Source of the DNA: an uncultured Bacteroidales bacterium
Lineage (GTDB): Bacteria; Bacteroidota; Bacteroidia; Bacteroidales; Muribaculaceae
Length of the DNA: 64,000 nt
Assembly: GCA_902792895.1 (NCBI GenBank)
Contig: CADBBK010000008.1
Coordinates: 21,785 to 85,784 of the forward strand
Direction of reading: 5' to 3'
In this document: in pieces, positions 1 through 35,852 of the stretch
Numbering within the stretch: the stretch's first letter is position 1
How the letters are laid out: each line of letters begins with the position of its first letter
Notes under the pieces: model-generated
What the model saw: only the letters and a program-made list of their open reading frames with translations
Told to the model about the DNA's origin: nothing
The model's database searches: none
Position numbers and translations under genes: made by a program

Positions 1-126
1 CCCGCTGATAATGACTACTGCGATAGTGTCCTCAGCATTACCCGCTAGACTTGGTGCCGCTGTGTCCTTCACGACACGGTGACCCCTGTCGCATTGTGCC
101 CACGTGACCAAATATTCACCCCCCCG

Positions 127-1242
127 ATGATACTAGATAAAGACATCATTACCGTTACGTCGCCCCTGATGCCCGACCTCGACGAGTTTCACAAGATGCT
201 CCAGGAGATCTGGGACCGCAAGTGGGTGACCAACAACGGCGAGTTCCATCGCCGCTTCGAGGCCGCGCTGTGTGAGTACCTCAAGGTGCCCTACATCAGC
301 CTGTTCACCAACGGCACCCTGCCGCTCATCACCGCCCTGCAGGCCCTCAACATCAGCGGCGAGGTCATCACCACGCCCTACAGTTTTGTGGCCACCACCC
401 ACTCGCTGTGGTGGAACGGCATCAAGCCCGTGTTTGTCGACATCGACATGGCCACGGGAGGCATCGACCCCGACCGCATCGAGGCCGCCATCACGCCGCG
501 CACCACCGCCATCATGCCTGTCCACGTCTATGGCAAGCCCTGCCGCACCCGCGAGATACAGGACATTGCCGACAAGTACGGCCTGCGCGTCATCTACGAC
601 GCCGCCCATGCCTTCGGCATCGAGGTCGACGGCAAGAGCATCCTCAGCGAGGGCGACATGTCCACGCTCAGTTTCCATGGCACCAAGGTCTTCGGCACTA
701 CCGAGGGCGGTGCCCTTGTCGTGCATGACGAGAAGACCAAGCAACGCATCGACTACCTCAAGAACTTCGGCTTTGCCGGCGAGACCGAGGTCGTCGCCCC
801 CGGCATCAACGGCAAGATGGACGAGATGCGCGCCGCCTACGGCCTGCTTAACCTGCGTCAGGTTGATGCCGCCATCGAGGCGCGTCATCAGGTCGCCATC
901 CGTTACCGCGAGGCCCTGCGCCCCGTCGAGGGCATCACCTTCTGGGACGACATGCCCGGTGTGCGCCACAACTACGGCTATTTCCCCATCTTTGTCGATG
1001 CCGACAAATATGGCATGACGCGCGACGAACTCTTCTTCAAGCTGCGTGAGCACCGCATCCTCGCTCGTCGCTACTTCTATCCCCTCATCAGCGACTTCTC
1101 CACCTACCGCGGCCTGCCCAGTGCCACCCGTGAGAACCTCCCCAATGCCACCCGCATGGCCGACACCGTTATTTGCCTCCCCATCCACCACGAACTCACC
1201 CCCACCGACCAACAACGCGTCCTCGACTGCATCCTCAAGTAA
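127..1242 (+). CDS. DegT/DnrJ/EryC1/StrS-family sugar aminotransferase
   Basis: PLP-dependent enzyme of the family that aminates nucleotide-linked keto sugars for surface polysaccharide synthesis. About 371 residues from the chosen ATG, the usual family length. Visible motifs are VIYDAAHAFG (Asp158 for the PLP pyridine nitrogen) and SFHGTKVFGTTEGG, where Lys187 is the Schiff-base lysine; the usual TGEGG has become TTEGG. A GTG at 79 would add 16 unlikely residues (many Pro/Cys), so ATG 127 is preferred. Bases 1-126 carry no gene I can support; one frame is open from the edge to a TAG at 46-48 and could be the tail of an upstream gene. High-GC codon use contrasts sharply with the next gene. 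Substrate unknown; it may provide the amino group that the acyl genes downstream decorate (inference). Confidence 0.9.
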   Translation: MILDKDIITVTSPLMPDLDEFHKMLQEIWDRKWVTNNGEFHRRFEAALCEYLKVPYISLFTNGTLPLITALQALNISGEVITTPYSFVATTHSLWWNGIKPVFVDIDMATGGIDPDRIEAAITPRTTAIMPVHVYGKPCRTREIQDIADKYGLRVIYDAAHAFGIEVDGKSILSEGDMSTLSFHGTKVFGTTEGGALVVHDEKTKQRIDYLKNFGFAGETEVVAPGINGKMDEMRAAYGLLNLRQVDAAIEARHQVAIRYREALRPVEGITFWDDMPGVRHNYGYFPIFVDADKYGMTRDELFFKLREHRILARRYFYPLISDFSTYRGLPSATRENLPNATRMADTVICLPIHHELTPTDQQRVLDCILK

Positions 1243-1303
1243 TAACCTTCTTTTATCATATTTCTATCTTAATAGGAAGGTTTGATTTTTTATATTATTA
1301 ATT

Positions 1304-2506
1304 ATGGATAAAGAAAAGTGTCATTTTTTTGTAAAAGAAGATTCGACAGCTAATAAACTTAGAGAGGTTTGCTATAAAAGTTATTATTCAAACAAACAAT
1401 TAGGTTTAAGAGTCATTAAGGATGGCTATGTCTTAATATCAAGAAAATGGGATGAAGCTTTTCATCTTGAAGGTGGCGTTGTTGATTCTAATATGCGCTA
1501 TTTGATAGGAACTGGATATGTTGACGTAGGTGGGTGTTCATATGAATTTGATGCTTCAAATGTAGAATGTGCAGGAAAATGTGTTTTTCTAGGTACTTTT
1601 CATACTTGTTATGGCCATGCTATTACTGATGCATTAAAGAAGTTATGGTTTTTAAATACAGACGAAGGGAAAAAACTACTTATTGACCATTCTGTAGATT
1701 TAGTATATATTACTGACTGCAATGTTGATATGCCGCAGTGGCATTTGAGAATATTTGAACTTGCTGGAATTGATGTCTCGAGGATTAAACACATCCGACA
1801 TACTACAAAATATAAAGAAATTATCATACCAGATAATTCCATATTTAGAGAAGAGGATGCGTTGTATTTTAGTAAAGAGTATCGTGAAATAATCGAAAAG
1901 ATTAAAGACAATGTTCGGAGCACTACTTATTATGAGTCGGCACCATCGTATGGTTTATATTATACACGGACCGCTTTAAAAGATGCCTCAAAAAGAGAAA
2001 TAGGAGAGAAATCAATTGAAAAGCTTTTTAAAAAGAGAGGATTTCAGGTGTTTTCTCCTGAGACACTGCCGTTAGAAGAACAAATAAGTCTCCTGATGAA
2101 GTGCAATAAATTCGCAGCTACAGAAGGCTCGTGTTCACATGCTTCGGTGTTTTGTGATTCATCTGCTGAAGTAATTATTCTGAGAAAAGCAAATTATGTG
2201 AATAGGTATTCGCCAATGATAAGCGATTTTGTTGGTTATCAAACAGTTTTTGTCGATGCCAATCATTCGGTAATGGCAAATAAGAAAGCCCCTATGGTTG
2301 GTCCGTTCTATCTGTGTGTGACTAAAGAATTGTCTCGTTATTTGGGCCAGAAATCGTTTGTTGTTCCTCTTTTTTTACGCCCCTCATATTGGAATTACCG
2401 TTGTATCTTCCCCATCAGGAAAGAATATTATCGGCTGAGAGCAGGCATAGGACTGAGAAGAAAGCTTAGGGGCTTCATAACTTCCGCATTTGACCATAGA
2501 CACTAA
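1304..2506 (+). CDS. GT61-like (DUF563) glycosyltransferase
   Basis: 400-residue protein with features of the GT61/DUF563 glycosyltransferase group: an N-terminal segment with TFHTCYGHAITDALKKLWFL (His and Asp of the conserved H-x-x-x-D region), a YYTR motif near residue 217, and a late ATEGSCSHASVFC segment resembling the conserved nucleotide-sugar region. No signal peptide or membrane span, so a cytoplasmic enzyme adding a sugar to the lipid-linked repeat unit is likely. The gene is strikingly AT-rich next to GC-rich neighbours, which suggests recent acquisition within a variable polysaccharide locus. A weak inverted repeat (1244-1250 with 1276-1282) lies just upstream. Family assignment is by motif resemblance; donor and acceptor unknown. 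Confidence 0.65.
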   Translation: MDKEKCHFFVKEDSTANKLREVCYKSYYSNKQLGLRVIKDGYVLISRKWDEAFHLEGGVVDSNMRYLIGTGYVDVGGCSYEFDASNVECAGKCVFLGTFHTCYGHAITDALKKLWFLNTDEGKKLLIDHSVDLVYITDCNVDMPQWHLRIFELAGIDVSRIKHIRHTTKYKEIIIPDNSIFREEDALYFSKEYREIIEKIKDNVRSTTYYESAPSYGLYYTRTALKDASKREIGEKSIEKLFKKRGFQVFSPETLPLEEQISLLMKCNKFAATEGSCSHASVFCDSSAEVIILRKANYVNRYSPMISDFVGYQTVFVDANHSVMANKKAPMVGPFYLCVTKELSRYLGQKSFVVPLFLRPSYWNYRCIFPIRKEYYRLRAGIGLRRKLRGFITSAFDHRH

Positions 2507-2661
2507 TGATTTAATATTTGTGCTGGAATAATTATTTCACGGAGTTTATTATATCGAACAAGGAAATCTCATCAGCTGAAAGATTTCATGAAGATACAAG
2601 GGCTCATGTGTTGTTATTGAATTGCTATCACGCTACTAGAATTGCCGAATAACATTGATCA

Positions 2662-3876
2662 ATGGCTGAAGTGAAGAAGAAACTCATGCTGCTGGGCGGG
2701 CTGCGTTATCTGTTGCCCGTCATCGAAGCGGCCCACCGTCACGGCATCCACGTCATAACCGTGGACTATCTGCCTGGCAACATTGCTCACAAGTATAGTG
2801 ATGAGTACCATAACGTGAGCATCATCGACAAGGAGGCTGTGCTGGCGCTGGCGCGCGAACTGCAGATTGACGGCATCATGTCGTTTGCCGTTGATCCTGG
2901 TGTTGTCGCCGCTGCTTATACTGCCGAGCAGATGGGCCTGCCGTTCCAGTGCAGTTATGAGGCGGCCTGCATCCTGCAGGACAAGTCGCGATTCCGCCAA
3001 TTCCTGGCCGACAATGGCTTTAACGTGCCCAACGCCCGCGGCTACAACGAGGCCGACGAAGCTCTCAAGGATATCGATTACTATAACTGGCCAGTCATTG
3101 TCAAGCCCGTGGACAGTGCCGGCAGCAAGGGCGTTACTCGCGTCGATGATCCTGCCGACCTGCCTGCTGCCATTACCCACGCTCTCGACAGCTCCCCCTC
3201 CCGCCACTACATCATCGAGGACTTCCTCGAGAAGGCTGGGCCCTCGATGGGAGACGAATGCTTTGTAGTCGATGGCAAGTTGCTGTACAATGCCTTTTAT
3301 GACCAGTTCTTTGACAACGAGGCGATGAATCCTTATGCCCCCTCGGGTGAGTTCTGGCCCTCGGCGATGAGCCAAGAGCATGAGCAGGAATTCAAGCGCG
3401 ACCTGCAACGCCTGTTTGACCTGTTGCACATCACCACGGGCATGTTCAACGTCGAGTGCCGTGTCTGCACCGATGGCAAAGCCTATCTAATGGAGGTCTC
3501 TCCGCGTGCCGGAGGCAACCGCCTGGCCGAGATACTGAACTATGCCGCCGACGTGGACATCATCGATGCCGAGGTGTGCGCTTCGGTAGGCCTACCGTTG
3601 CCTGACGTCCACGAGCCCAACTACAACGGCTACTATGCCATCAACGTGCTTCATAGCGAGCGTGATGGTGTGTTCAAGCAACTGAGCATCGACCCCGACT
3701 TTGAGCGTGAGCATCTCGTTGAGCGCGACCTTTGGGTCAAGCCGGGTGATAAGGTGGCAGCCTTTACCGGTGCCAATCAGTCCTTGGGCACCATCTTCCT
3801 GCGCTTCGATACCCGCGAAGCCCTCAACCGTTTCGTCTCCGCTCCCAATACCTACATCTCCATAGTCACCGAATGA
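2662..3876 (+). CDS. ATP-grasp ligase (CarB-like fold)
   Basis: 404-residue ATP-grasp enzyme, a family that forms amide or thioester bonds through an acyl-phosphate. An N-terminal Rossmann-like pre-ATP-grasp domain (residues 5-95) is followed by WPVIVKPVDSAGSKGV (about 143-158, ATP-binding lysine and glycine-rich loop) and MEVSPRAGGNRLAE (about 285-298, metal-binding Glu and Arg/Asn). Its TGA overlaps the next gene's ATG by four bases, so translation is coupled to the PLP enzyme and then to the NeuD-type protein. Preceded by about 155 bases of AT-rich non-coding DNA with no clear promoter. It may ligate an amino acid or acyl group to a sugar or to an amino acid made by the next gene (inference); the substrate is not readable from sequence. 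Confidence 0.85.
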   Translation: MAEVKKKLMLLGGLRYLLPVIEAAHRHGIHVITVDYLPGNIAHKYSDEYHNVSIIDKEAVLALARELQIDGIMSFAVDPGVVAAAYTAEQMGLPFQCSYEAACILQDKSRFRQFLADNGFNVPNARGYNEADEALKDIDYYNWPVIVKPVDSAGSKGVTRVDDPADLPAAITHALDSSPSRHYIIEDFLEKAGPSMGDECFVVDGKLLYNAFYDQFFDNEAMNPYAPSGEFWPSAMSQEHEQEFKRDLQRLFDLLHITTGMFNVECRVCTDGKAYLMEVSPRAGGNRLAEILNYAADVDIIDAEVCASVGLPLPDVHEPNYNGYYAINVLHSERDGVFKQLSIDPDFEREHLVERDLWVKPGDKVAAFTGANQSLGTIFLRFDTREALNRFVSAPNTYISIVTE

Positions 3877-4814
3877 AACCCATCGGCGGATACTTCGAAC
3901 TCGAATTGCCGCAGCGCAGCGAATACCACAGCGCAGCGATAGCCCTGAACACGGGCCGCAATGCCTTGGAGTACATTTTGCGGGCGCGAGGCTACAAGCA
4001 TGTCTATCTGCCGTACTATTCCTGCGAGGTGCTGCTTGAGCCCTTCAGGAAATTGGGCGTTGACTACACGTTCTATCACATTGATGAACGTTTGGAGATC
4101 GCGGCACCGATGACGTTGGGCGATGGTGAGACGCTCTTGTACATCAACTATTATGGCCTCAAGCATGACTATTGTGAGGCTCTGATGGAGAAATATGGCA
4201 AACGACTGATTGTGGACAATACGCAGGCATTTTATGCCCTCCCGACAGATGGAATCGACACCTTCTATAGTTGCCGCAAGTTCTTTGGTGTTGCCGATGG
4301 CGCTTATCTCTACTGTGACCAGCCGTTGAACATGGAACTGGAACAGGACCAGTCATGGCAGCGTATGGACTATCTGCTCAAGAGAGCAGACATTTCAGCC
4401 GAGGCTGCCTATGCCGATTTCAGGGCCCAAAGCGAGAAACTCAAGGACAATCCCATCAGGAGGATGTCGCACTTGACGCATCGCATCATGGCATCAATCG
4501 ACTATAAACAAGCCGCAACGCGTCGCCGCGAGAATTATGCTTTCCTCGACGAGGCTTTGAAAGGGCAAAACCGCATCTCATTGCCGTTGGCCGATGATGC
4601 CGTGCCCATGGTCTATCCATTTCTCACCGATGATGACGGGTTGCGTCAACGATTAATTGAAAACAAGATATTTGTAGCACAATACTGGCCCAATGTGCTG
4701 GACTGGTGTGAAAAAGGCTACACCGACTATCAACTGACAAAGCAACTTCTCCCGCTGCCAGTCGACCAACGCTACGGCACCGAGGAGATGAAACGAATCA
4801 TTGAACTGATATGA
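3873..4814 (+). CDS. Short DegT-like PLP-dependent enzyme
   Basis: 313 residues, shorter and more divergent than ordinary sugar aminotransferases. The PLP fold can be traced: an N-terminal NTGRNALEYILRARG helix, IVDNTQAF with Asp115 and Gln118 in the cofactor positions, and YSCRKFFGVADGAYLY with Lys136 as the likely Schiff-base lysine. All key residues are kept, so it is probably active. It overlaps the ATP-grasp gene upstream (ATGA) and the NeuD-type gene downstream (ATGA), making a three-gene coupled unit. A role in aminating a sugar or making an amino acid for the ATP-grasp partner is inferred from context only. Confidence 0.75.
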   Translation: MKPIGGYFELELPQRSEYHSAAIALNTGRNALEYILRARGYKHVYLPYYSCEVLLEPFRKLGVDYTFYHIDERLEIAAPMTLGDGETLLYINYYGLKHDYCEALMEKYGKRLIVDNTQAFYALPTDGIDTFYSCRKFFGVADGAYLYCDQPLNMELEQDQSWQRMDYLLKRADISAEAAYADFRAQSEKLKDNPIRRMSHLTHRIMASIDYKQAATRRRENYAFLDEALKGQNRISLPLADDAVPMVYPFLTDDDGLRQRLIENKIFVAQYWPNVLDWCEKGYTDYQLTKQLLPLPVDQRYGTEEMKRIIELI

Positions 4815-5440
4815 AAGATTTAATTATAGCAGGAGCTGGCGGTTTTGGCCGCGAAGCTTTAGCCTTAGCCAAGACATTAAATAAAATCGAACCCAGATGG
4901 AACATCCGTGGCTTCATCAATGACATACCCGATGCACTCGACGGTGTGAAATGCAGTCATAGCATCATAGGCACCATCAAAGATTGGCAGCCATCAGAAA
5001 ATGAAGTGTTTGTCATGGGTATATCCTCGCCTGCGGGCAAGGAAAAGGTTGCTGGCATTCTTAAAGCAAAAGGCGCGCAATTCGTGACTTTGATACATCC
5101 CTTCGCAATTGTGGGAGAATTCGTAGAGATGGGTGAAGGATGCGTTATCAATGGACGCTCATCAATTGGTGGTGGTGCTGTGTTAGGAGATTTTGTTAAT
5201 TTGGCAGGTTCTATGGTGGGTCAGGATGCTGTGATCGGGGACTTTTCGACTACTACAGGCTATGCAAACATCACTAATGCTCATTTAGGTAAACGTGTAT
5301 TTGTAGGCAGTCATGCTGTCATCATGAATAAGCGTAAAATTGGCGATGATGTCTACATCTGTGCTGGTAGTATCGTATTTAATAATGTCAAGTCAGGAAT
5401 TAAGGTATTTGGAAATCCAGCAAAGAAATTCGATTTATAG
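4811..5440 (+). CDS. NeuD/PglD-type sugar O/N-acyltransferase (left-handed beta-helix)
   Basis: 209 residues. Residues 1-80 form a small Rossmann-like domain starting MKDLIIAGAGGFGREALALA, which binds the nucleotide-sugar in PglD-like enzymes. Residues 95-205 show hexapeptide repeats ([LIV]-G-x-x) of a left-handed beta-helix acyltransferase, with HPFAIVGEFVEMGEGCVING and GSHAVIMNKRKIGDDVYI. Members transfer acetyl or other acyl groups to amino sugars or sialic acids. Coupled by ATGA overlap to the PLP enzyme and three bases from the following SDR gene, it sits at the junction of the sugar and acyl genes. It is one of two candidates (with the GNAT at 8936-9751) for placing the acyl group on the sugar. 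Confidence 0.88.
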   Translation: MKDLIIAGAGGFGREALALAKTLNKIEPRWNIRGFINDIPDALDGVKCSHSIIGTIKDWQPSENEVFVMGISSPAGKEKVAGILKAKGAQFVTLIHPFAIVGEFVEMGEGCVINGRSSIGGGAVLGDFVNLAGSMVGQDAVIGDFSTTTGYANITNAHLGKRVFVGSHAVIMNKRKIGDDVYICAGSIVFNNVKSGIKVFGNPAKKFDL

Positions 5441-5443
5441 TAC

Positions 5444-6196
5444 ATGAGCGATAATTACAATCCTTTTGTGTTGAAGGGGCGTACTATACTTGTGACAGGT
5501 GCTTCGTCAGGTATAGGGCGCATGACAACTATCTGTTGCTCCAAAATGGGCGCACGTTTGATAGTAACAGGCCGTAACCAGGAGCGCCTTGATGAAGTCA
5601 GTTGTATGTTGGAGAGTGATGACCATCAAGTTGTTGCCGCTGACTTGACCCAACCAGACCAGGTCGACCATTTGTTGGAGCGATTGCCTGTTGTCGATGG
5701 TGTCGTGTTGTGTGCTGGACAGGGGACCGTAGTTCCATTTAAAATGGCTGACCGTAAAAAGCAGGACCCGATATTTGAGATCAACTACTTCGCGCCTGTC
5801 GAGTTATTGCGATTGTTGTTGAAAAAGAAAAAGTTGGCAAATGGTGCATCGGTGGTATTCGTTTCATCGATTGGAGGTGTGGATTCAATCACAATCGGCA
5901 ATAGTATTTATGGCGCATCCAAGGCTGCTTTGAATTCTGCTATGAGGTTTTGTGCCTTGGAGTTAGCGCCTAAGAAAATACGTGTTAATAGCGTGTGCCC
6001 TGGAATGGTGAACACGCGTCTAATTCAGGGTGGCGCTATCTCTGAAGAACAGCATCAGGCTGATATGCAGAAGTACCCACTCAAGCGCTATGGAGAACCT
6101 GAAGATATTGCCTATGGAATAGTGTACTTATTGTCAGATGCTTCGTCATGGGTTACTGGACATTCTCTAGTGATTGATGGCGGTTACACGTTATGA
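5444..6196 (+). CDS. SDR-family oxidoreductase (FabG-like), copy 1
   Basis: 250-residue classical short-chain dehydrogenase. TGASSGIG lies at residues 18-25 (NAD(P) binding), VVLCAGQG stands in for the NAG motif, and VSSIGG plus YGASKAA give the Ser-Tyr-Lys catalytic residues; it ends with VIDGGYTL as in FabG relatives. It starts three bases after the NeuD-type gene and is followed 15 bases later by the first KAS III gene. A role as 3-ketoacyl-ACP (or -CoA) reductase in the acyl cassette fits the neighbours; a sugar dehydrogenase role is the alternative. Confidence 0.9.
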   Translation: MSDNYNPFVLKGRTILVTGASSGIGRMTTICCSKMGARLIVTGRNQERLDEVSCMLESDDHQVVAADLTQPDQVDHLLERLPVVDGVVLCAGQGTVVPFKMADRKKQDPIFEINYFAPVELLRLLLKKKKLANGASVVFVSSIGGVDSITIGNSIYGASKAALNSAMRFCALELAPKKIRVNSVCPGMVNTRLIQGGAISEEQHQADMQKYPLKRYGEPEDIAYGIVYLLSDASSWVTGHSLVIDGGYTL

Positions 6197-6211
6197 TATT
6201 GATTTAAGATT

Positions 6212-7324
6212 ATGGCTTTTTTCGAGTTTAACAATATACGTGTGGCGGGTGTTGCTTGTGCTGTGCCTAAGAACGTGGTCGAGAGTGAATCCTATAAGCC
6301 CATTTTTGGCGATGAGGAGGTAGATAAGTTCATGGCGATGACAGGTGTTAAGGTCTCACACCGCACGCTTGAACATCAGACTTGTTCCGATCTTGGTTAC
6401 CGGGCTGCTAAGGAACTGCTGGCCCACAAGGGAGTCAAATCTGAAGATATTGGCGCTCTGTTGTTTTCATCACACAGTCCAGACTATCGTCGTCCCTCGA
6501 CGGCATTTGTCCTTCAGTACCGCTTGGGTATCCCTGAAGAGGCTGTATGCTACGACATCAGCCTGGGATGTTCCTCGCTAGTTGTAGGCATGCAGACGAT
6601 GGCTTCTATTTTGAGTACCAGCGACATGAAGTATGGCCTCTTGTTTGTTGGTGATACTGCGGGTAAGTCGGTGAACCCCAACGACCGCAGTTCGGCCATG
6701 CTTTTTGGTGAGGCGGGTGCCGTGATGTTGATGGAGAAGACTCAAGATTCCACTGATGAGGTCAAGGCGCTTATTCGTAGTGATGGTACGGGTTTCAAGT
6801 ACATGATTATCCCTGGTGGCGGTTACCGCAACCTGCATGCTAGTGAGGATGTGGAGATGTGTGCCGATGGCAACGAACGCTCACTGATGAACTCGTTTAT
6901 CCAGGGCGCCTCGGTATTCACGTTCACTATCTTTGATGTGCCTCGTCTTATTAAGGACTTTTGGACGAAAACAGGCACAACTCCACAGGATTATGACTGC
7001 TTTGCCTTTCATCAGGCCAATCTATATATCCTCAAGCAGATAGCCAAGAAGACTAAGATCCCATTCGAGAAAATGCCGATTACGCTCGATCGCTATGGTA
7101 ACACGTCGGGCGCTTCGGCCATCGTTTCACTATGCGACGTTTATGGCGGTAGCACCGAGGCCAGCACCATCAAGGTGATGGCATGTGGCTTTGGCATTGG
7201 CATCTCTCTGGGAGCGACTTCGTTTGAAATAAACACTGCCGATATCCTGCCCATTATGGAAGATGATGAAATCTATGCTGAGGGGCTCATCACTTATCCC
7301 AATCAACTCTACGAGAAAAAGTGA
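6212..7324 (+). CDS. Ketoacyl-ACP synthase III family enzyme, copy 1
   Basis: 370-residue FabH-like thiolase-fold protein. The full Cys-His-Asn triad is present: YDISLGCSSLVVG (Cys120), FAFHQANLYILKQI (His267) and RYGNTSGASA (Asn297). FabH-like enzymes condense an acyl-CoA or acyl-ACP starter with malonyl-ACP; relatives in specialised pathways transfer acyl groups. About 50 residues longer than housekeeping FabH and sitting in a polysaccharide locus, it is unlikely to be the cell's FabH. The last four bases overlap the adenylation gene (GTGA), coupling their translation. Confidence 0.9.
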   Translation: MAFFEFNNIRVAGVACAVPKNVVESESYKPIFGDEEVDKFMAMTGVKVSHRTLEHQTCSDLGYRAAKELLAHKGVKSEDIGALLFSSHSPDYRRPSTAFVLQYRLGIPEEAVCYDISLGCSSLVVGMQTMASILSTSDMKYGLLFVGDTAGKSVNPNDRSSAMLFGEAGAVMLMEKTQDSTDEVKALIRSDGTGFKYMIIPGGGYRNLHASEDVEMCADGNERSLMNSFIQGASVFTFTIFDVPRLIKDFWTKTGTTPQDYDCFAFHQANLYILKQIAKKTKIPFEKMPITLDRYGNTSGASAIVSLCDVYGGSTEASTIKVMACGFGIGISLGATSFEINTADILPIMEDDEIYAEGLITYPNQLYEKK

Positions 7325-8850
7325 TTTACAACGTCCTGTCTTATCTTGAGGATACTGCTCGCCGTTTTCCTGGTAAAATGGCGCTAGTCGATGACAAGAA
7401 CGCTCTCACCTTTACCCAATGGTTGTTCATGGCAGAGGGCATAGGCACTTATATCGCTCGCTCTACGGGTGTTATGCGTCGCCCTGTATTGGTGTTTGTG
7501 GACCGCAAGATTGAGTGTCTTATCGGCTTTATGGGGGTAGTAGAGAGTGGCAATTTTTATGTGCCAATCGATAATAAGATGCCCTGCGCACGCATTCGTC
7601 TGATTTCCGAGGTGCTTAATCCTGTCGCTGCAATCACAGTGACCCCTAAGGATGGCGAGGCTCTCAGTGAAATCGGTTTCCAGGGTGTGGTAATGGACTA
7701 TGCGGAAGTCATTAAGGAGGTGGGCGACAAAAAACTGTTGAGCAGCATCCGGGCTCAGATGATTGATACCGATCCGCTCTATGCCATTTTCACGAGCGGC
7801 TCGACAGGTGTACCTAAAGGTGTGGTCGTCAGCCATCGTGGCGTGATAGATTTGGCTGAATGGCTGGTCGACAGGTTTGGCTTCGACGAGACTGACGCTT
7901 TGGGCAACCAGACTCCATTTTATTTTGATGGTTCTGTTAAGGATATATACATTTGTCTCAAGACAGGAGCAACGCTCAACGTCATCGGCAAGAAGTATTT
8001 TACCTTTCCCAAACTGCTCATCCAACTGCTTAATGAGCGGCGAATAACTACTATTTTGTGGGCAACATCGGCCATCATGCTGGTGGGCAACAGCCATATC
8101 CTCGACGATAACGTGCCTAGGGGGCTCAAGCGCGTATTTTTTGCCGGCGAGGCGATGCCTGCCAAGCAATTGAAGGTATGGATGAGCAAACTGCCCTCAA
8201 CGCAGTTTATCAACTTGTACGGCCCCACTGAGATTACCGTGGATTGTACCTACTATATCGTGGATCGCGACTTCGACAGCGATGAGTACATTCCCATCGG
8301 CAGACCTTGTGAGAACATGCAGGTGCTGGTGTTTAATGATGATGGCCGCCTGGTGGGTGTTGATGAACCTGGCGAACTCTGCGTGCGCGGCACAGGTGTT
8401 GCTTTGGGATACTATAACAACAAGGGAAAAACACGTGAGGTTTTTGTGCAGAATCCTTTGCATGATCTCTACGATGACATCATCTACCGCACGGGGGACA
8501 TCGTTAAATACAACAAGCGTGGTGAGTTGGAATTCGTCTCTCGCAAGGATTTCCAGATCAAGCACAACGGCAACCGCATCGAGTTGGGAGAGATAGAAGT
8601 GGCAATCAACGCCCTGGATGATGTGACAAGTGCTGCATGCATCTTTGACAGTGAGGAAGACAAAATTGTGCTCTATTACACCACGGCCAGCGGCAATGAG
8701 TTGGACATCATCAATCTGGTGAAAGACCGTCTGCCCAAGTACATGTTCCCAAACGTCATCAACCACCTGACTGCCATGCCGCACAACATGAACGGCAAGA
8801 TTGACCGTATCGCCCTCAAACAACGATACCAACAATTAAAACTACGATAG
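7321..8850 (+). CDS. Stand-alone amino/hydroxy-acid adenylation enzyme (DltA-like)
   Basis: 509 residues of the AMP-forming acyl-activating family, closest in look to NRPS adenylation domains or DltA. Core motifs: FTSGSTGVPKG (157-167, A3 P-loop), LYGPTEIT (A5), IYRTGDIV (A7), and NMNGKIDRIAL near the C-terminus with the A10 lysine. There is no fused carrier or condensation domain, so it would load a carrier in trans; two small ACPs lie just downstream. It starts at a GTG overlapping the previous stop. The activated acid is unknown; reading substrate-pocket residues needs a structural alignment. Function within the acyl cassette is inferred. Confidence 0.9.
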   Translation: MIYNVLSYLEDTARRFPGKMALVDDKNALTFTQWLFMAEGIGTYIARSTGVMRRPVLVFVDRKIECLIGFMGVVESGNFYVPIDNKMPCARIRLISEVLNPVAAITVTPKDGEALSEIGFQGVVMDYAEVIKEVGDKKLLSSIRAQMIDTDPLYAIFTSGSTGVPKGVVVSHRGVIDLAEWLVDRFGFDETDALGNQTPFYFDGSVKDIYICLKTGATLNVIGKKYFTFPKLLIQLLNERRITTILWATSAIMLVGNSHILDDNVPRGLKRVFFAGEAMPAKQLKVWMSKLPSTQFINLYGPTEITVDCTYYIVDRDFDSDEYIPIGRPCENMQVLVFNDDGRLVGVDEPGELCVRGTGVALGYYNNKGKTREVFVQNPLHDLYDDIIYRTGDIVKYNKRGELEFVSRKDFQIKHNGNRIELGEIEVAINALDDVTSAACIFDSEEDKIVLYYTTASGNELDIINLVKDRLPKYMFPNVINHLTAMPHNMNGKIDRIALKQRYQQLKLR

Positions 8851-8878
8851 GACATAGTTTTTAGTTTAACAACAGATT

Positions 8879-8904
8879 ATTCTGAAAAATCTGATATTCA
8901 GAAT
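8879..8904. repeat. 26-bp palindromic element, left copy, before the GNAT gene
   Basis: ATTCTGAA and TTCAGAAT form a perfect 8-bp stem around a 10-base loop containing AAATCTGA. A second copy, identical at 21 of 26 positions, lies at 9754-9779 directly after the GNAT gene. It could act as an attenuator or weak terminator, or mark the borders of an inserted gene. Confidence 0.7.
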
Positions 8905-8935
8905 GCTTAGATTCTTCAGTTGTTTTTAAGTCAGT

Positions 8936-9751
8936 ATGAAGCAGTTGACCTCAATAGAGCAGTATAACAGCATTGTCGAGCGTTACCGACGCACGGGATG
9001 CCTGAGCAACGACTACCTGCAGGCTCGTGCAGCAGGGCTTATCGCCCATGGGACGCTACTAGCCGAGTGCAACGGTGACAACGCCTACCTGCTCGAGGCC
9101 AAGGACAACTGCTACCGCTTGTACTATTTCATCAATGACATTGAGGCTATCGATCAACCTGTTTTCTCAAGTGATGTAGTGACCGAAATCCTTTATCGTG
9201 GAGCAGAACATTTCCCGACCGAAGAGGTGGCGTTTCTCGAGCGAATGGGCTTTGAGCGAAACTTGGTGCGAGACCAGTATGCTGCTGTTTATAAGGACTT
9301 GGTGCCTGCTTGCAAGTATGAAGAGGTTACTGTACGGCCCGCTGTTGACCTGGGTGAGGTACAATGGTCATGTCGACTCTTTAATGCCACTTTTGATCCT
9401 TACAGTGGAGACTTCATCCCAGAGCAGACCTATGATCAACTACTGGCAACAGGAAGCATCCTTATAGCTGTGGATTCCCTCTGTAACAAGGTTGGAGCGT
9501 TGCATCTGACATTGGAGCGCAAGGTGGCATGGATTTCCCATATCGCAGTCATGCCTGCAGCACGAGGCCATCATGTGGGAACCGCCCTGCTGGACGACTT
9601 TGTCGAACGTAATCACGTCACCGACAAGAGTCGTTACATGCTATGGGTTCAGCAGCAGAACACCGCAGCCGTGGCCATGTACCAGAACAAAGGCTTTCGC
9701 TATTTGGGCAAATCCACCCTCTCCCTCATTAGAACAATCACAAACAACTGA
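8936..9751 (+). CDS. GNAT-family N-acyltransferase
   Basis: 271 residues. The C-terminal half has the GNAT acyl-CoA fold: ISHIAVMPAARGHHVGTALL with the R-G-x-x-V-G-T pyrophosphate loop (motif A), then NTAAVAMYQNKGFRYLGKS (motif B). The N-terminal 120 residues (CYRLYYFINDIEAI...) look like a degenerate second GNAT-like or substrate domain. The gene is set apart from its neighbours by 85 and 113 bases that each carry a nearly identical palindrome. It may move the ACP-bound acyl group, or an acetyl group, onto an amino sugar (inference). Confidence 0.8.
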   Translation: MKQLTSIEQYNSIVERYRRTGCLSNDYLQARAAGLIAHGTLLAECNGDNAYLLEAKDNCYRLYYFINDIEAIDQPVFSSDVVTEILYRGAEHFPTEEVAFLERMGFERNLVRDQYAAVYKDLVPACKYEEVTVRPAVDLGEVQWSCRLFNATFDPYSGDFIPEQTYDQLLATGSILIAVDSLCNKVGALHLTLERKVAWISHIAVMPAARGHHVGTALLDDFVERNHVTDKSRYMLWVQQQNTAAVAMYQNKGFRYLGKSTLSLIRTITNN

Positions 9752-9753
9752 TA

Positions 9754-9779
9754 TTTCTGATAAATCTGACAATCAGAAA
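9754..9779. repeat. 26-bp palindromic element, right copy, after the GNAT gene
   Basis: TTTCTGAT and ATCAGAAA form a perfect 8-bp stem with the same AAATCTGA core as the copy at 8879-8904. The following bases up to 9864 are AT-rich with no recognisable -7 box, so nothing shows independent transcription of the ACP gene downstream. Confidence 0.7.
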
Positions 9780-9864
9780 CCTCAGAATAATCAATTGTCA
9801 AGCATAGTTGCAAACTGGATAACTATAGTAATTATTGTATTTATTGTTTTCCTTTTTTTAGAAT

Positions 9865-10086
9865 ATGGACAAATTGTTAGAAATTTTACAGGGCATTCGC
9901 CCCGATGTGGACTTTGTGAACGAGACTGAACTTATAGACGAGGGTATCCTCGACTCCTTCGACGTCGTTTCCATCATCAGTGAAATCGATGATGCCTTCG
10001 GTGTGCAAATCCGTATTAACGAACTCGACCCCGAGAACTTCAACTCCGTCGAAGCCATCTGGTCCCTTATCCAGAAACTGAAATAG
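9865..10086 (+). CDS. Acyl carrier protein, copy 1
   Basis: 73-residue acidic helical protein with the carrier-protein signature DEGILDSFDVVSII; Ser31 is the phosphopantetheine site. The motif (DS followed by hydrophobics, not DSLD) and the short length resemble DltC-like or pathway-specific carriers rather than housekeeping AcpP. Its TAG is followed immediately by the ATG of the next gene. It is a likely partner for the adenylation enzyme and KAS III proteins of the cassette. Confidence 0.9.
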   Translation: MDKLLEILQGIRPDVDFVNETELIDEGILDSFDVVSIISEIDDAFGVQIRINELDPENFNSVEAIWSLIQKLK

Positions 10087-10758
10087 ATGCCTATCAATCC
10101 TATGTCATTATGCGGAAAACGGTTGCTGTTAGGTAGTGACGGATCCGCTCTAAATCACGAAATTTGTCGCACTTTGCAGGCATTGGGTGCCGAGGTGTTA
10201 GTAATTGATGCAAAAGCGGAATTAAATGATATTCTAGCAGGTATTGATAATGTAGAATATGATGGTTTTTTTTGGGGTTGCGTGCATAGCGATTTCCGTC
10301 CCTTGAAGATGGTCTCGCGTGATAATATGATGCAAATCATGGATGAAAATTATTTTAGGTTCATCGATTTGTTACGCGACTTGATGAAACACAAACGTAT
10401 TGGCAAGAACGCTAGCATAGTTGCTATGTCATCCATTAGTAGCATAAGGGCGATGAAGGCAAAGATGGTTTTTAGCGCTGCTAAGGCTGCACTAGACGCT
10501 TCGATGCGAAGCCTAGCTTTAGAACTGGCGCCCAAGGGCATAAGGATCAACACTATTCAGAAGGGTGCCGTTGATGTGGATTTTGAGAAAGAACATATCC
10601 AGACAGTGAGCGCAATAAACGATGGGATGGCAAGTCGGCAGGTCCTGGGGGTTACTGCAGCAGTTGAGGTCGCTAACCTTGTCGCTTTTTTGCTCAGTGA
10701 TGCGACCAAGTCACTGACGGGTACATCAATCGTCATTGATGGAGGATATACACTATAA
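10087..10758 (+). CDS. SDR-like protein lacking cofactor motif and catalytic Tyr
   Basis: 223 residues with a clear SDR C-terminal half (SLALELAPKGIRINTIQKGAV, then LLSDATKSLTGTSIVIDGGYTL), so it belongs to the FabG-like family. The nucleotide loop TGxxxGIG is replaced by GSDGSALNHEI, the NAG motif by FFWGCVHSD, and the YxxxK pair reads FSAAK: Phe replaces the catalytic Tyr while Ser and Lys remain. The frame is intact and the C-terminus well kept, so it is not decaying DNA. It may be a non-catalytic partner of the intact SDR encoded 12 bases downstream, or have taken on a different reaction. Adjacent to ACP upstream with no spacer. Confidence 0.85.
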   Translation: MPINPMSLCGKRLLLGSDGSALNHEICRTLQALGAEVLVIDAKAELNDILAGIDNVEYDGFFWGCVHSDFRPLKMVSRDNMMQIMDENYFRFIDLLRDLMKHKRIGKNASIVAMSSISSIRAMKAKMVFSAAKAALDASMRSLALELAPKGIRINTIQKGAVDVDFEKEHIQTVSAINDGMASRQVLGVTAAVEVANLVAFLLSDATKSLTGTSIVIDGGYTL

Positions 10759-10770
10759 AAGAGATTAATC

Positions 10771-11532
10771 ATGCCCGATTTTTTAGATTTTAAAGGAAAG
10801 AAAATATTCGTCACGGGTGCTGCAGGTGGAATGGGGCAGGCGGTTTCTGCTTTGTTGGCTGCACACGGCGCTCATCTCATTTTGCTAGACCGCAACAAAG
10901 AACAGCTGGATGTTACTCGTATTGGCCTTGAAGGGAGTGATCATACGTCTTATGTTTGTGATTTGGGACAAATCGATGCCATTGAAGGATTGATGAGTCA
11001 GATAACTAAAGAACAAGGTGCTGTGGATGGTTTGGTACATTGTGCAGGAATTGCCAATGTGCGACCTTTGAAGTTGTCCAAGTATTCCTATATGGTTGAC
11101 GTGATGAATGTGAACTATTTCTCATTTGTGGAGATTGTGCGTTGCATCACCAAACGCAAGGCTTTTAACCCAGGGTTGAGCATCGTGGGCATCTGTTCAA
11201 TCGGAGCTTTTTATGGCGCTCCGACCAAGACGGCCTACAGCTCTTCAAAGGCGGCGATGTATGCTGCCGTCAAGTGTATGGCTGTAGAGCTAGCTGAAAA
11301 GGGAGTGAGAGCTAATGTCGTGGCTCCAGGCTCGACCCGTACCGGTATGATGGAACAAGCCGAGGAATATTCTGCTGGAACAGACAGTTACAAGCAGAAA
11401 CTATCAAGACAATATTTGGGTATCTGTGAGCCTGAAGATATTGCCAACTCCATTGCCTTCCTGTTGAGCGATAAGGCCCGCATGATTACAGGTGCCTGCT
11501 TGACTGTGGATGGTGGCAAAATGTCTACCTAA
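10771..11532 (+). CDS. SDR-family oxidoreductase (FabG-like), copy 3
   Basis: 253 residues. FVTGAAGGMG near the N-terminus (cofactor loop), HCAGIAN (NAG-type motif), CSIGAF (Ser) and YSSSKAA (Tyr and Lys) show a complete active site. The C-terminal ITGACLTVDGGKMST is typical of the family. It follows the Tyr-less SDR by 12 bases and precedes the second KAS III gene by 76 bases. Probable ketoreductase acting on carrier-bound acyl groups, possibly together with the inactive-looking paralogue; a sugar substrate cannot be excluded. Confidence 0.9.
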   Translation: MPDFLDFKGKKIFVTGAAGGMGQAVSALLAAHGAHLILLDRNKEQLDVTRIGLEGSDHTSYVCDLGQIDAIEGLMSQITKEQGAVDGLVHCAGIANVRPLKLSKYSYMVDVMNVNYFSFVEIVRCITKRKAFNPGLSIVGICSIGAFYGAPTKTAYSSSKAAMYAAVKCMAVELAEKGVRANVVAPGSTRTGMMEQAEEYSAGTDSYKQKLSRQYLGICEPEDIANSIAFLLSDKARMITGACLTVDGGKMST

Positions 11533-11608
11533 GTGGCTGGCGATTCATTTAGAGTTTAAGGTTGGAATTAGGATCCACAGACAATAAAAAATAAATAACA
11601 GATAATTA

Positions 11609-12658
11609 ATGATTGGCAAAATGATACTAAATGAATTTAATGGTATCGCGGTAAAGGGTATCGCTTGTGCTGTATCAACAAACTGGGTATCGATAGAGTC
11701 GCTAAAGAACGGAGAAAACGATGCTGTTCTTGACAAATTTGTGAAGACGACGAGCGTGCTGGGACATTATGAGTGTGGTCCTCGCCAGACGGCTGCCGAT
11801 TTGGCCCAAGCTGCCGCCCAGCGCATCTTTGATGCCCAGGGCATTGACAAAAGTGAAGTGGGCGTGCTGGTTTTTGCAACGCAGTACCCTGATTACCGTG
11901 TGCCCTCGACAGCATGCGTATTGCAAGATAGGTTGGGCCTGCAAAGAGACTGCATGGCGTTTGACATTAACCTGGGGTGCTCGGGCTATGTCTATGGACT
12001 TAATGTGGTGTCGTCGCTGATGCAGTCAAGCAACGTGCGCTATGGTCTGTTGTTGGCAGGTGACACTCCGTCAAAGGGGGTGCGCAGCGACAACTCACGC
12101 AACTTGTTCGGAGATGCCAGTGCTGCAACCTTGTTGGTTAAAGAAGAGGGCGCATCACCCATTACCATCGCTTCGCGCACCGACGGCTCTGGCTACAAGG
12201 CCATTCTACGTCCCTACGGTTATAGCAAGCACCCCGAGAGACCTGACATAGAAGGGGTGTTTAATGAGATTGACGTGTTCAATTTCGCCATCGACGAGGC
12301 CCCGGCACTTATCAATGAGCTGTTAGCTGCCAAAGGCCTTACACCTGGCGATTTTGACTGTATGGCACTACATCAGGCCAATATGATGATTATGAAACAG
12401 ATCGTGCGACGCACCCACTTTGACAAGGCCAAAATGTTGATGTCTATAGACCGCTTTGCCAACACGAGCGCGGCTTCGATTCCCTTGTGCTTCGTCCAGA
12501 AATATGGGGAGACTGAGGGAGCCGAAATAGTGAACGCGCTCATCTGCGGCTACGGAGTGGGACTGTCATGGGCTGCCGGCATCATCTGCATCAATGCACA
12601 AGATGTGCTGCCCATCATCGAGACCGATGAATACTTTGATGACGGATTATTTGTTTAA
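11609..12658 (+). CDS. Ketoacyl-ACP synthase III family enzyme, copy 2
   Basis: 349 residues with a complete triad: FDINLGCSGYVYG (Cys124), ALHQANMMIMKQI (His255) and DRFANTSAAS (Asn285). It is a clear paralogue of the enzyme at 6212-7324 (shared PDYR.PST.....QDR/YRLG region and PII.D.E C-terminus) but diverged throughout, so not a recent duplication. The start at 11609 has an alternative ATG four codons later. The following ACP begins 19 bases downstream. Two KAS III enzymes suggest two successive condensations or a condensing/transfer pair. Confidence 0.9.
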   Translation: MIGKMILNEFNGIAVKGIACAVSTNWVSIESLKNGENDAVLDKFVKTTSVLGHYECGPRQTAADLAQAAAQRIFDAQGIDKSEVGVLVFATQYPDYRVPSTACVLQDRLGLQRDCMAFDINLGCSGYVYGLNVVSSLMQSSNVRYGLLLAGDTPSKGVRSDNSRNLFGDASAATLLVKEEGASPITIASRTDGSGYKAILRPYGYSKHPERPDIEGVFNEIDVFNFAIDEAPALINELLAAKGLTPGDFDCMALHQANMMIMKQIVRRTHFDKAKMLMSIDRFANTSAASIPLCFVQKYGETEGAEIVNALICGYGVGLSWAAGIICINAQDVLPIIETDEYFDDGLFV

Positions 12659-12677
12659 CTATATAAACTATACAATT

Positions 12678-12896
12678 ATGACTAACGAAGAAAAATTGCA
12701 TTTGCTGGAAGATGTTTTTGAACTGGACGAGAATACGCTGACTCCAGAGATGGTTTTGGCTGATATCGAGGAGTATGACTCAATGTCCAAGTTATCACTT
12801 ATTGTGATGATTGACGATGAGTGCCACAAGAAACTCACAGGTGAGCAGCTTAAGGAATTTGAGACAATACAGGACATTCTCGACTTCATGGGCTGA
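12678..12896 (+). CDS. Acyl carrier protein, copy 2
   Basis: 72-residue acidic protein. ADIEEYDSMSKLSLIVMI carries the attachment serine (Ser35) in a DSM context. An upstream in-frame ATG at 12594 lies inside the KAS III gene; the start at 12678 gives a normal carrier length. Its stop overlaps the ATG of the metallo-hydrolase by one base (TGATG), so the two are translationally coupled. Divergent from copy 1, so the two carriers may serve different enzymes. Confidence 0.88.
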   Translation: MTNEEKLHLLEDVFELDENTLTPEMVLADIEEYDSMSKLSLIVMIDDECHKKLTGEQLKEFETIQDILDFMG

Positions 12897-13483
12897 TGGC
12901 CATACGTATCGTCAACTCATTCTATTTCTCTTGTACATGGGTGCTTGAGGAGGGATGGGTGGTAGATTGTGGTGATGTGGAGCCATTGTTGCCGTTGCTG
13001 CTAGAAACTGGATTGCAGGGCGTATTGCTTACCCATGGCCACTATGACCATATTTACGGGTTGAATAATTTGTGCACAAGATTCCCTGAGGCAAAAGTTT
13101 ATTGCAGCCCATGGACACGGAGACAGTTGCTGGATGAGAAATTAAATATTTCATTCTACCACGAGATGCCGTTTGTGTTTGCCTTCCCTGAACGCATTGT
13201 GACGGTGGAGGATGGTTGGCGTACAGACTTGGGCAGTGGAAATGAGGTGAGAGCCATCTATACACCAGGACACACCCCTGACTGTATCACTTGGATGACA
13301 AACAAAGCATTATTCACGGGTGATGCCTATATTCCAGGTTATAAAGTGGTGACCAGGTTGCCCTATGGCAACAAGCAACAAGCCACCAAATCCATCGAGA
13401 TGATTCTGTCGCTAGCTGAGGGAAGGACAATATGCCCAGGTCACAATATAGATGACATACATGTACCAAATATAAAGTTGTAA
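12896..13483 (+). CDS. Metallo-beta-lactamase-fold hydrolase
   Basis: 195-residue MBL-fold enzyme with all metal ligands: THGHYDH (His47, His49, Asp51, His52), TPGHT (His126), TGDAY (Asp143) and CPGH (His183). Members of this size include glyoxalase II-like and acyl-thioesterase enzymes. Coupled by overlap to the second ACP, it could hydrolyse or release acyl thioesters, either as the product-release step or as an editing thioesterase (inference). Confidence 0.88.
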   Translation: MAIRIVNSFYFSCTWVLEEGWVVDCGDVEPLLPLLLETGLQGVLLTHGHYDHIYGLNNLCTRFPEAKVYCSPWTRRQLLDEKLNISFYHEMPFVFAFPERIVTVEDGWRTDLGSGNEVRAIYTPGHTPDCITWMTNKALFTGDAYIPGYKVVTRLPYGNKQQATKSIEMILSLAEGRTICPGHNIDDIHVPNIKL

Positions 13484-13490
13484 GATTTGG

Positions 13491-14465
13491 ATGAGTGAAC
13501 CTATTGCACCGTTGGTTTCAATTCGTTGTTTGGTATACAATCACGAGCCTTATTTGCGACAATGCTTAGACGGTTTCGTGATGCAGAAGACCAATTTCCC
13601 CTTCGAAGCCATCGTCCATGACGATGCCTCGACCGACGGATCGGCTGCCATCATCCGTGAGTATGCCGAGAAGTACCCCGACATCATCAAGCCCATCTAC
13701 GAGACCAAGAACCAGTATTACAAAGCGTTAGGAAAGATAATGTATGAAGCTATACATCCAGGCGCTAAATACATTGCTTTTTGCGAAGGTGACGACTACT
13801 GGACCGACCCCTACAAACTGCAAAAGCAAGTGGACATCTTGGAATCGGACCCAGAGATAGGCCTTGTCTATACCTGTGCTTCTATGTTTGACCAACAAGC
13901 ACAAAAGATTGTTGTGGAGAAGTTTGGAAAATCAATAGACTCTTTTGAGGCAGAGTTGCGCAATAATGAATGCATTACTCTCACTTCCTGCGTGAGAAAA
14001 GACTTTTTGACAGACTATCGAAGCTTTTTTAGAAGCAACAAACTGGGTATGCGGTATTGGAAAATGGGTGATTACCCGTTATGGCTATATGTTTGCCATC
14101 ACTCTAAGGCTTTTTTTATCCCAGAGGTGACCGGTGTTTACCGCGTGTTGCCGAATTCCGCCAGCCACAGCACCGATATGCAGAAGAATGTGGACTTTGA
14201 GTTGTCTGCGCTTGACATTCGCGATTTTTTTGCAAAATATCATCACTGCGAGGAACTCATGGACGAAATTGCCGCTGAATCTGTTTCCCGAATTCAGTGG
14301 CTCTCTGTAGCACATAACCAGCCGCCCACCTATAGCCTGAGAGAACTTGAGAAGAAGTATGAGATCAAGTTACCGGCTAAGATATGGATTAAGCACTTTC
14401 TGCTGAAGCATCGAATGACACGCAGCGCCTTCATCAGATTGATAAAAATGAAAAATAGAGGATAG
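13491..14465 (+). CDS. GT2-family glycosyltransferase
   Basis: 324 residues. The N-terminal GT-A domain shows VSIRCLVYNHEPYLRQCLDG, VHDDASTDGSAAII and FCEGDDYWTDPYKLQKQVDI, the last carrying the D-D/DxD nucleotide-sugar and metal site. No signal peptide; a few hydrophobic residues only, so cytoplasmic or peripheral on the inner membrane. It starts seven bases after the metallo-hydrolase and is the last gene of the polysaccharide locus before a terminator-like hairpin. The sugar transferred is unknown. Confidence 0.9.
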   Translation: MSEPIAPLVSIRCLVYNHEPYLRQCLDGFVMQKTNFPFEAIVHDDASTDGSAAIIREYAEKYPDIIKPIYETKNQYYKALGKIMYEAIHPGAKYIAFCEGDDYWTDPYKLQKQVDILESDPEIGLVYTCASMFDQQAQKIVVEKFGKSIDSFEAELRNNECITLTSCVRKDFLTDYRSFFRSNKLGMRYWKMGDYPLWLYVCHHSKAFFIPEVTGVYRVLPNSASHSTDMQKNVDFELSALDIRDFFAKYHHCEELMDEIAAESVSRIQWLSVAHNQPPTYSLRELEKKYEIKLPAKIWIKHFLLKHRMTRSAFIRLIKMKNRG

Positions 14466-14525
14466 CCCCGAATTGGGAACGTTGCAGACTCAAGATGCTG
14501 CAACGCTACTTCTGAGGAGAACAGT

Positions 14526-14557
14526 AAAGCCGGGTCAACGTTTGTTGGCCCGGCTTT
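14526..14557. terminator. Hairpin between convergent genes
   Basis: AAAGCCGGGTCAAC and GTTGGCCCGGCTTT form a 14-bp stem with one G-T pair around a GTTT loop. It sits between the end of the GT2 gene (+) and the end of the dockerin gene (-) and could serve both. There is no strong downstream U-tract on either strand. Confidence 0.75.
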
Positions 14558-14576
14558 GCTGTGGGGGAGGGTGGGG

Positions 14577-35756: not shown

Positions 35757-35852
35757 CATGGATATCAATTTGGCCCGATCGGGAGGGCCAATTGATACAT
35801 TTTGGTAGTTTGATGTCGTAAATATGAAATCGTAATATTTTTGAGAAAAATA

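Follow-up and report, generated by a model that had tools for sequence, protein, structure and literature searches.

A cassette in a Muribaculaceae genome that may couple amino-acid loading to ketosynthase-based building of acyl groups for amino sugars

The viosamine genes vioR and vioS of Pseudomonas syringae encode a 3-ketoacyl-ACP synthase III (KAS III) and a reductase. The O-polysaccharide of Flavobacterium psychrophilum carries, by NMR, a 3,5-dihydroxyhexanoyl group on Qui2NAc4N, and its R1-group genes wfpC-wfpG, located beside those of the 4-amino sugar, are predicted by the authors to encode two ketosynthases (wfpC and wfpE), an acyl carrier protein (ACP; wfpD), a reductase (wfpF) and a PglD-type transferase (wfpG) (PMC6519341). 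Acinetobacter baumannii has qhbC/qhbB for hydroxybutanoyl on a 4-amino sugar, QuiNAc4NHb (PMC9676051). The groups reviewed for Qui4N and Qui3N include N-[(R)-3-hydroxybutyryl]-L-alanyl (on Qui4N), N-acetylalanyl (on either) and 3-hydroxy-2,3-dimethyl-5-oxopyrrolidine-carboxyl, so hybrids of amino acids with hydroxyacyl groups exist on such sugars (PMC3210612). In the Streptomyces SB-203208 system, which comprises SbzB/SbzL, SbzG/SbzK and SbzC/SbzI, a GNAT acyltransferase takes its acyl group from an ACP in vitro; SbzC, for which a similarity to mycothiol acetyltransferase is described, works with an aminoacyl group bound to an ACP (PMC6331615). Features of these systems meet in a cassette of eleven genes (NeuD to MBL in Table 1) within a 64,000-nucleotide stretch, hereafter the window, of an uncultured Bacteroidales bacterium of the Muribaculaceae (GCA_902792895.1, positions 21,785 to 85,784 of CADBBK010000008.1, contig C8 of a 3.2-Mb genome).

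Like wfpC-wfpG, the cassette (4811-13483, intact and co-directional) has two KAS III proteins (KAS1 and KAS2), an ACP, a reductase of the short-chain dehydrogenase/reductase (SDR) family and a NeuD/PglD-type transferase. Its genes are likely to form a single operon, because the gaps between them are short (0-113 bp) and several overlap by 4 bp (ATP-grasp/AT2, AT2/NeuD and KAS1/A) or 1 bp (ACP2/MBL). Unlike the wfp genes as described, it adds an adenylation enzyme (A), a GNAT, a second ACP, a pseudo-SDR and a second reductase, and since it carries an amino-acid loading module (A, GNAT and ACP1) it is a variant of the wfpC-wfpG type rather than a member. The available part of PMC9676051 mentions no such module for the qhb genes. 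With SB-203208 the window shares a stand-alone adenylating enzyme, a free ACP and a GNAT, but it has KAS III, which the available part of PMC6331615 does not mention for that antibiotic cluster. A and ACP1 also resemble Dlt proteins (295.9 bits to the DltA model and 40.7 bits to the DltC model), but plain D-alanylation was rejected: both fall below the curated cut-offs (476 and 68, respectively), the scanned neighbours include neither MBOAT nor DltD, and the pocket code of A, DGKTFALVDK, differs from the DVKVMSLCNK and kin of weaker matches that were taken for Dlt by their gene sizes. Simple acetylation as the sole role was likewise rejected, as it explains no KAS or ACP. A possible kinship with Campylobacter jejuni Cj1299-Cj1308 was dropped from the comparison, as the literature searched, PMC3068675 included, gave no test of it, and the available part of PMC5601056 holds nothing on acyl genes. 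Cassettes of this general kind have been described before. An amino-acid module accompanied by a ketosynthase clade of its own (KAS-A, below), and the pseudo-SDR form seen in the window, constitute an undescribed variant as far as found, no account of the module, the clade or the pseudo-SDR form having been met in the open-access literature, although one may exist elsewhere.

The cassette is best read, with slightly more confidence than doubt, as a stand-alone (type II) line resembling nonribosomal peptide synthetases and polyketide synthases (NRPS/PKS), which would place an amino-acid-containing hydroxyacyl group onto a 4-amino-6-deoxy sugar. In the proposed scheme, whose reactions, order, amino acid and acceptor we infer from the genes, their motifs, the co-occurrence of A with condensing enzymes and a pocket Asp, A would activate an amino acid and load it onto ACP1, and the tandem GNAT would either acylate the amine of the loaded amino acid or pass the aminoacyl group on. 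KAS1 would join the ACP1-bound aminoacyl unit to malonyl-ACP, SDR3 would reduce the product with the pseudo-SDR, SDR2, as its partner, and KAS2 and SDR1, working on ACP2, may perform a second round or supply a hydroxyacyl unit. MBL might edit stalled thioesters, and NeuD would finally acylate the amino group of a nucleotide sugar supplied by the DegT enzyme.

KAS1 and KAS2 belong to KAS III (FabH superfamily) by their ACP_syn_III domains and Cys-His-Asn triads (C120, H267 and N297 in KAS1), which are intact in all 68 of the KAS III proteins compared; the nearest solved chains are 4efi and 3gwa. Equivalents of FabH Trp32 and Arg36, the CoA clamp, are present in the housekeeping FabH of the source genome and missing from 67 of 67 cassette KAS, a loss that fits a carrier-borne primer. 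Both ACPs reach the PP-binding cut-off and have attachment motifs by eye. A passes the amino-acid adenylation model TIGR01733 (338.2 bits, cut-off 317.4), and its pocket retains the amino-acid-binding Asp (Asp235 in GrsA numbering), as do 35 of 35 distinct A proteins above 600 bits and that of a Helicobacter locus (L170; L and G numbers denote loci and genomes), pointing to an amino acid as the substrate of A. The codes of KAS-bearing loci are DIFPWALLDK-like, DNLPLALVDK-like or, in three loci of the window type, DGKT(F/T)ALVDK; many weaker matches have DVKVMSLCNK or kin, and another group (IARVCSQASK) has no Asp. Prediction of the amino acid itself was dropped, the window code being without a match.

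SDR1 and SDR3 have the full set of TGxxxGxG, Ser and YxxxK. SDR2 reads GSDGSALN and FSAAK, with neither the glycine motif nor the catalytic Tyr of active SDRs, and is judged from these residues to be a conserved pseudo-enzyme, leaving two reductases at most. The NeuD-type protein has PglD_N and hexapeptide repeats above the Pfam cut-offs and scores 135.8 bits to TIGR03570 (cut-off 160.8), so that the curated rule does not assign it as NeuD. MBL, which has homologues in related cassettes, is possibly an editing thioesterase. The structure model of the GNAT (pLDDT 91.3, pTM 0.84, 12-sequence alignment) has a tandem-GNAT fold, with VipF, MAB_4324, MshD, a clavulanate-pathway GNAT and WecD among its best Foldseek matches and TM-scores by query length of 0.44-0.67 among the best 50 listed. 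A FeeM-like function was rejected, FeeM not being among those 50 and the fold being a tandem GNAT. GNAT decarboxylases exist in PKS loading modules, and a role of that type is conceivable here. A role as malonyl-ACP decarboxylase after the example of MadA was rejected, for in MadA it is the hot-dog domain, not the GNAT, that decarboxylates (PMC8666670).

An earlier note on this DNA had listed the eleven genes on one strand, with triads in both KAS III, attachment serines in the ACPs, the signature of A and two full and one altered SDR, and the open reading frames (ORFs), Pfam/NCBIfam matches and motifs agree with all of this. It had further proposed two rounds of condensation and reduction: the dihydroxyhexanoyl group that F. 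psychrophilum has with like genes (PMC6519341) speaks for two rounds.

The distribution of A links it to condensation. Among 393 genomes of the order, 11 have A at 359 bits or more, below which scores drop to 251 (three candidates per genome were scored, and five and seven in the KAS-A and SDR2 searches). A genome-collection scan with A added 80 further loci, two of them on contigs already in the set (L165 and L191, on the contigs of L116 and L123, and dropped from the count). A same-strand KAS lies within 9 kb of 27 of the 35 distinct A genes above 600 bits, compared with 1 of 54 weaker ones (L170); GNAT, KAS and SDR are all present at 25 of the 35, and with the ten loci used for training the hidden Markov models (HMMs) excluded, KAS is near 17 of 25 (hand count). 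The common form, A-GNAT-ACP1-KAS-ACP2-SDR-(SDR)-(MBL)-NeuD, is found in Bacteroidota, including Bacteroides fragilis S82 (L169), Flavobacterium Leaf82 (L175) and Aquirufa (L141). Variants occur in Pseudomonadota, Acidobacteriota and Bacillota, with an altered form in Methylorubrum rhodesianum (L180), Bryobacterales (L161), Lachnospiraceae (L163 and L198) and Desulfovibrionaceae (L205). One of these, in Lachnoclostridium (L198:4327-18035), is a still larger version, with three KAS III, four ACP2-type and one ACP1-type carriers, five SDRs, two ligases and two GNATs.

When 68 KAS III proteins were placed in a tree (KAS ORFs of 250 amino acids or fewer, below 100 bits or identical being left out), a single clade, KAS-A, gathered 28 of them, from 27 loci, with support of 100/100. 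A relative of A is present at all 27 loci, although all except L089 were fetched through A and the figure is biased accordingly; that of L158 was recovered by tblastn, as ORF picking favoured the longer of overlapping ORFs and shadow ORFs can hide genes. A separate search of these 393 genomes with KAS-A, at a threshold so strict that outlying members would be missed (E<=1e-110), found it in 9 genomes, all within the 11 bearing A. In eight of the nine, A and KAS-A share a contig at a distance of a few kb, and in the ninth (G209) they are on two contig fragments. The two A-bearing genomes without KAS-A at this threshold, the source genome and G550, both carry KAS1/KAS2. Thus A is tied to condensing enzymes by co-occurrence.

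This association bears on the main rival to amino-acid extension, a convergent route in which a 3-hydroxyacyl-ACP comes from KAS III, SDR1 and ACP2, an aminoacyl-ACP1 comes from A, and the GNAT combines the two acyl units into an N-(3-hydroxyacyl)-aminoacyl group with no C-C bond formed to the amino acid. Products of just this sort, the hydroxybutyryl-alanyl and N-acetylalanyl groups, are known (PMC3210612), some GNATs use ACP thioesters (PMC6331615), and SDR1 and MBL of the window cluster with those of cassettes lacking A. Such convergence is nonetheless judged rather unlikely, because the KAS of A loci mostly form their own clade, which is accompanied by A in nine of nine genomes, a tighter bond than an exchangeable supplier of hydroxybutyryl groups would need, and because SDR2, SDR3 and KAS1 would be surplus. 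Moreover, in the L170 locus of Helicobacter brantae (5900-15455) the genes for A, KAS-A, one ACP, SDR and NeuD stand between LegC and NeuB/NeuC/cytidylyltransferase genes, but no GNAT was found there by the GNAT HMM, so a joining step by a GNAT is dispensable for A and KAS; the surroundings suggest that its product is an acylated legionaminic-type acid. FabD above its cut-off in L127 and L195 points to malonyl extension.

The form of the cassette seen in the window is rarer than the KAS-A form, its commoner sister in bacteria of several phyla. In G550 (L114), which belongs to another family, KAS1-A-GNAT-ACP1-SDR2-SDR3-KAS2 stand in the same order as in the window, followed by SDR1, with identities of 82% (KAS1), 67% (A) and 71% (KAS2). 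A third locus, from the Bacteroidia metagenome-assembled genome RUG11609 (L127), reads A-GNAT-ACP2-KAS-SDR-KAS1-ACP1-SDR2-SDR3-MBL-FabD. The eleven-gene order described by the earlier note thus persists in part, over seven genes in L114 and fewer in L127, and was not found whole elsewhere. The unrelated combinations elsewhere that would have refuted its reading were not seen for the A-GNAT-ACP-KAS part, which recurs together. SDR2, present in 2 of the 393 genomes (E<=1e-38), has Phe for Tyr and the broken glycine motif in three of three orthologs (window, L114 and L127), and in each it adjoins SDR3, which retains Tyr and Lys throughout and has Ala for Ser in two. With SDR1 (support 97) and MBL (98) clustering with A-less cassettes in FastTree analysis, the window seems to have a core for hydroxyacyl groups (NeuD, SDR1, KAS2, ACP2 and MBL) into which an aminoacyl module (KAS1, A, GNAT, ACP1, SDR2 and SDR3) may have been merged. 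Tentatively, and with rather more doubt than attaches to the scheme above, the loci may represent a dissociated NRPS/PKS for glycans, in which an ACP-bound amino acid primes malonyl extension by KAS III, while reduction by a pair of SDRs, one of them inactive, yields statine-like amino-(di)hydroxyacyl groups, the KAS-A form working likewise with one ketosynthase in several phyla. No biosynthetic description of such groups as N-substituents of sugars was found in the open-access literature.

Several observations weigh against extension of a loaded amino acid in the window. KAS1 and KAS2 are outside the KAS-A clade, grouping with proteins of L114, L127, L198 and L205 (95/90), so although A, GNAT and ACP1 are neighbours as in KAS-A cassettes, the coupling of A to KAS at this locus is argued from relatives. 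For eight of the 35 A genes above 600 bits (L116, L192, L151, L190, L172, L135, L129 and L128) the stretch contains no KAS, though the first two are at contig ends. The window GNAT is only 18-22% identical to 11 aligned cassette GNATs, that of L114 being closer (280 bits), and the L127 GNAT has no Pfam match. The L114 stretch, whose contig begins 0.75 kb upstream, shows no ACP2, MBL or NeuD, and in L127 A-GNAT adjoins ACP2 instead of ACP1. The pocket code of the window A fits no amino acid known to us, and loss of the Trp32/Arg36 equivalents may be mere divergence.

A further alternative is that the cassette makes two independent acyl groups, KAS, SDR, ACP2 and NeuD placing a hydroxyacyl group at one amine while A, ACP1 and GNAT place an aminoacyl group on another amine or a hydroxyl, as in SB-203208. 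Precedent exists in SbzB/SbzG/SbzC with SbzL/SbzI (PMC6331615), the GNAT model resembles MshD and WecD among others, and the stretches of L128, L132, L138 and L139 have an A-GNAT-ACP triad but no KAS, though with weak GNAT scores and some on short contigs. Such a division of labour is improbable given that A co-occurs with a dedicated KAS and that KAS1 and the SDR2-SDR3 pair accompany ACP1 in three of three window-type loci.

Sister cassettes without A illustrate the hydroxyacyl side. Queried with KAS1 and KAS2, 198 genomes of the family yielded no match above 42% identity outside the window locus, but KAS III proteins of this kind turned up at many loci. From these a set of 24 regions from other genomes and the second locus of the source genome was assembled. 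Leaving out L092 (no KAS ORF above 200 bits) and L089 (which has A), 23 KAS loci lack an A above 600 bits, with SDR nearby in 20, ACP in 19, NeuD in 18, DegT in 12, FkbH in 9 and MBL in 8; six have two KAS, and L083 and L084 have almost none of the partner genes. KAS III, SDR, ACP and NeuD, as annotated from sequence, thus recur as a core for building acyl groups, and the genes around this core can be exchanged. The second cassette of the source genome (contig C1, L008:4158-17708) comprises FkbH (286 bits, cut-off 146.65), a VOC protein, two KAS III, ACPs, NeuD-type proteins, DegT, MBL, a sugar-transfer ATP-grasp protein and a ligase without the amino-acid Asp; L074, L078 and L079 are similar. 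In the genus Flavobacterium, F. psychrophilum itself not included, 15 of 150 genomes have KAS of this kind (E<=1e-68), and in five of nine fetched regions (L213-L217) an SDR accompanies at least two KAS; four of these five also have ACP, four have NeuD, and L216 has the full set. Rieske-type oxygenases stand inside such double-KAS cassettes, by Pfam (L213:7425-8522 and L216:6401-7480) or by eye (L214:7614-8702 and L217:2926-4014), and may therefore oxidise the acyl chain in these loci. With sister loci carrying SDR, ACP, NeuD and DegT, and with the F. psychrophilum product, the proposal of the earlier note that an ACP-built, non-acetyl acyl group is destined for an amino sugar holds up, and its interpretation as a whole is partly supported.

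On the sugar side, the best NCBIfam model of DegT is DesI (dTDP-4-dehydro-6-deoxyglucose aminotransferase), a 4-aminotransferase model, below its cut-off; the nearest solved chain, 2po3, is labelled a 4-dehydrase and is followed by sugar aminotransferases. Strong homologues of DegT directly adjoin the cassettes of L070 (685 bits) and L118 (687 bits). DegT therefore likely makes the amino-sugar acceptor, which is likely to be a 4-amino-6-deoxy sugar. Upstream of the cassette, which is followed by GT2, lie DegT, GT61 and the ATP-grasp/AT2 pair (2662-4814), the latter recurring side by side at the A cassette of L195; a link of ATP-grasp with L114 was dropped as a training artefact. AT2 has homologues in L195, L191 (= L123) and L127, and its R135 and K136 are invariant in four aligned homologues. 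The + strand encodes all 16 genes of Table 1 (79-14465). Three tandem proteins farther on (32295-41941, +) each have Peptidase C10, Spi inhibitor, Ig-like and dockerin-type domains, and another dockerin-type protein is encoded at 14577-15950 (-).

The placement of the cassette inside a polysaccharide locus, as first described, is doubtful. Two glycosyltransferases and DegT are among the flanking genes, but no glycan cluster was seen by eye in the 21.8 kb upstream, the downstream proteins scanned (not every ORF was) are unrelated, and among the neighbours scanned or read by eye, not all ORFs being annotated, there is no flippase, polymerase or initiating sugar transferase. These absences, with only two glycosyltransferases present, would suit a small diffusible or lipid natural product decorated by the two glycosyltransferases in place of an acyl group for a glycan, but this is very improbable: relatives L169, L127 and L216 lie among genes for sugar-phosphate transferase, DegT, FnlA-like and NeuD proteins (several below curated cut-offs), that of L170 lies in a nonulosonate set, and NeuD is part of the window cassette itself.

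Table 1. Genes of the window from DegT to GT2, with positions in the window
Gene product	Position	Strand	Evidence
DegT-family sugar aminotransferase	79..1242	+	PF01041 325 bits; TIGR04427 289.5 bits, cut-off 650
GT61-family glycosyltransferase	1304..2506	+	PF04577
ATP-grasp ligase	2662..3876	+	PF13535; 4-bp overlap with AT2
AT2, aminotransferase-like by eye only	3873..4814	+	no Pfam/NCBIfam match
NeuD/PglD-type N-acyltransferase	4811..5440	+	PF17836 and PF00132 above cut-off; TIGR03570 below
SDR1, intact ketoreductase-type SDR	5444..6196	+	motifs; FastTree clade (97) with SDRs of A-less cassettes
KAS1, KAS III	6212..7324	+	Cys-His-Asn intact; 82% ortholog in L114, also in L127
A, stand-alone amino-acid adenylation enzyme, GTG start	7321..8850	+	pocket code DGKTFALVDK
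GNAT, tandem-GNAT acyltransferase	8936..9751	+	PF00583 on C-terminal half; predicted fold
ACP1, DltC-like carrier	9865..10086	+	PF00550; DSF motif; NF003464 DltC 40.7 bits, cut-off 68
SDR2, pseudo-SDR	10087..10758	+	Tyr to Phe, broken glycine motif
SDR3, intact SDR	10771..11532	+	motifs; adjoins SDR2
KAS2, second KAS III	11609..12658	+	39% identity to KAS1; Cys-His-Asn intact
ACP2, acyl carrier protein of fatty acid synthase type	12678..12896	+	PF00550; DSM motif; NF003757 32.7 bits, cut-off 65
MBL-fold hydrolase, glyoxalase-II-like	12896..13483	+	PF00753; TIGR03413 60 bits, below cut-off
GT2-family glycosyltransferase	13491..14465	+	PF00535

The R-group genes of F. psychrophilum are associated with O-serotype (PMC6519341), and N-acyl groups of surface sugars affect O-serotype. 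If the proposed scheme is true, bacteria splice amino-acid loading into a line that builds acyl groups for glycans, with swappable starter modules, such as A-GNAT-ACP in the window and FkbH near 9 of the 23 sister KAS loci. KAS-A is a dedicated KAS III clade whose substrate is directly testable, and the sugar substituents of these bacteria, including a strain of Bacteroides fragilis, would become more readable from their genomes.

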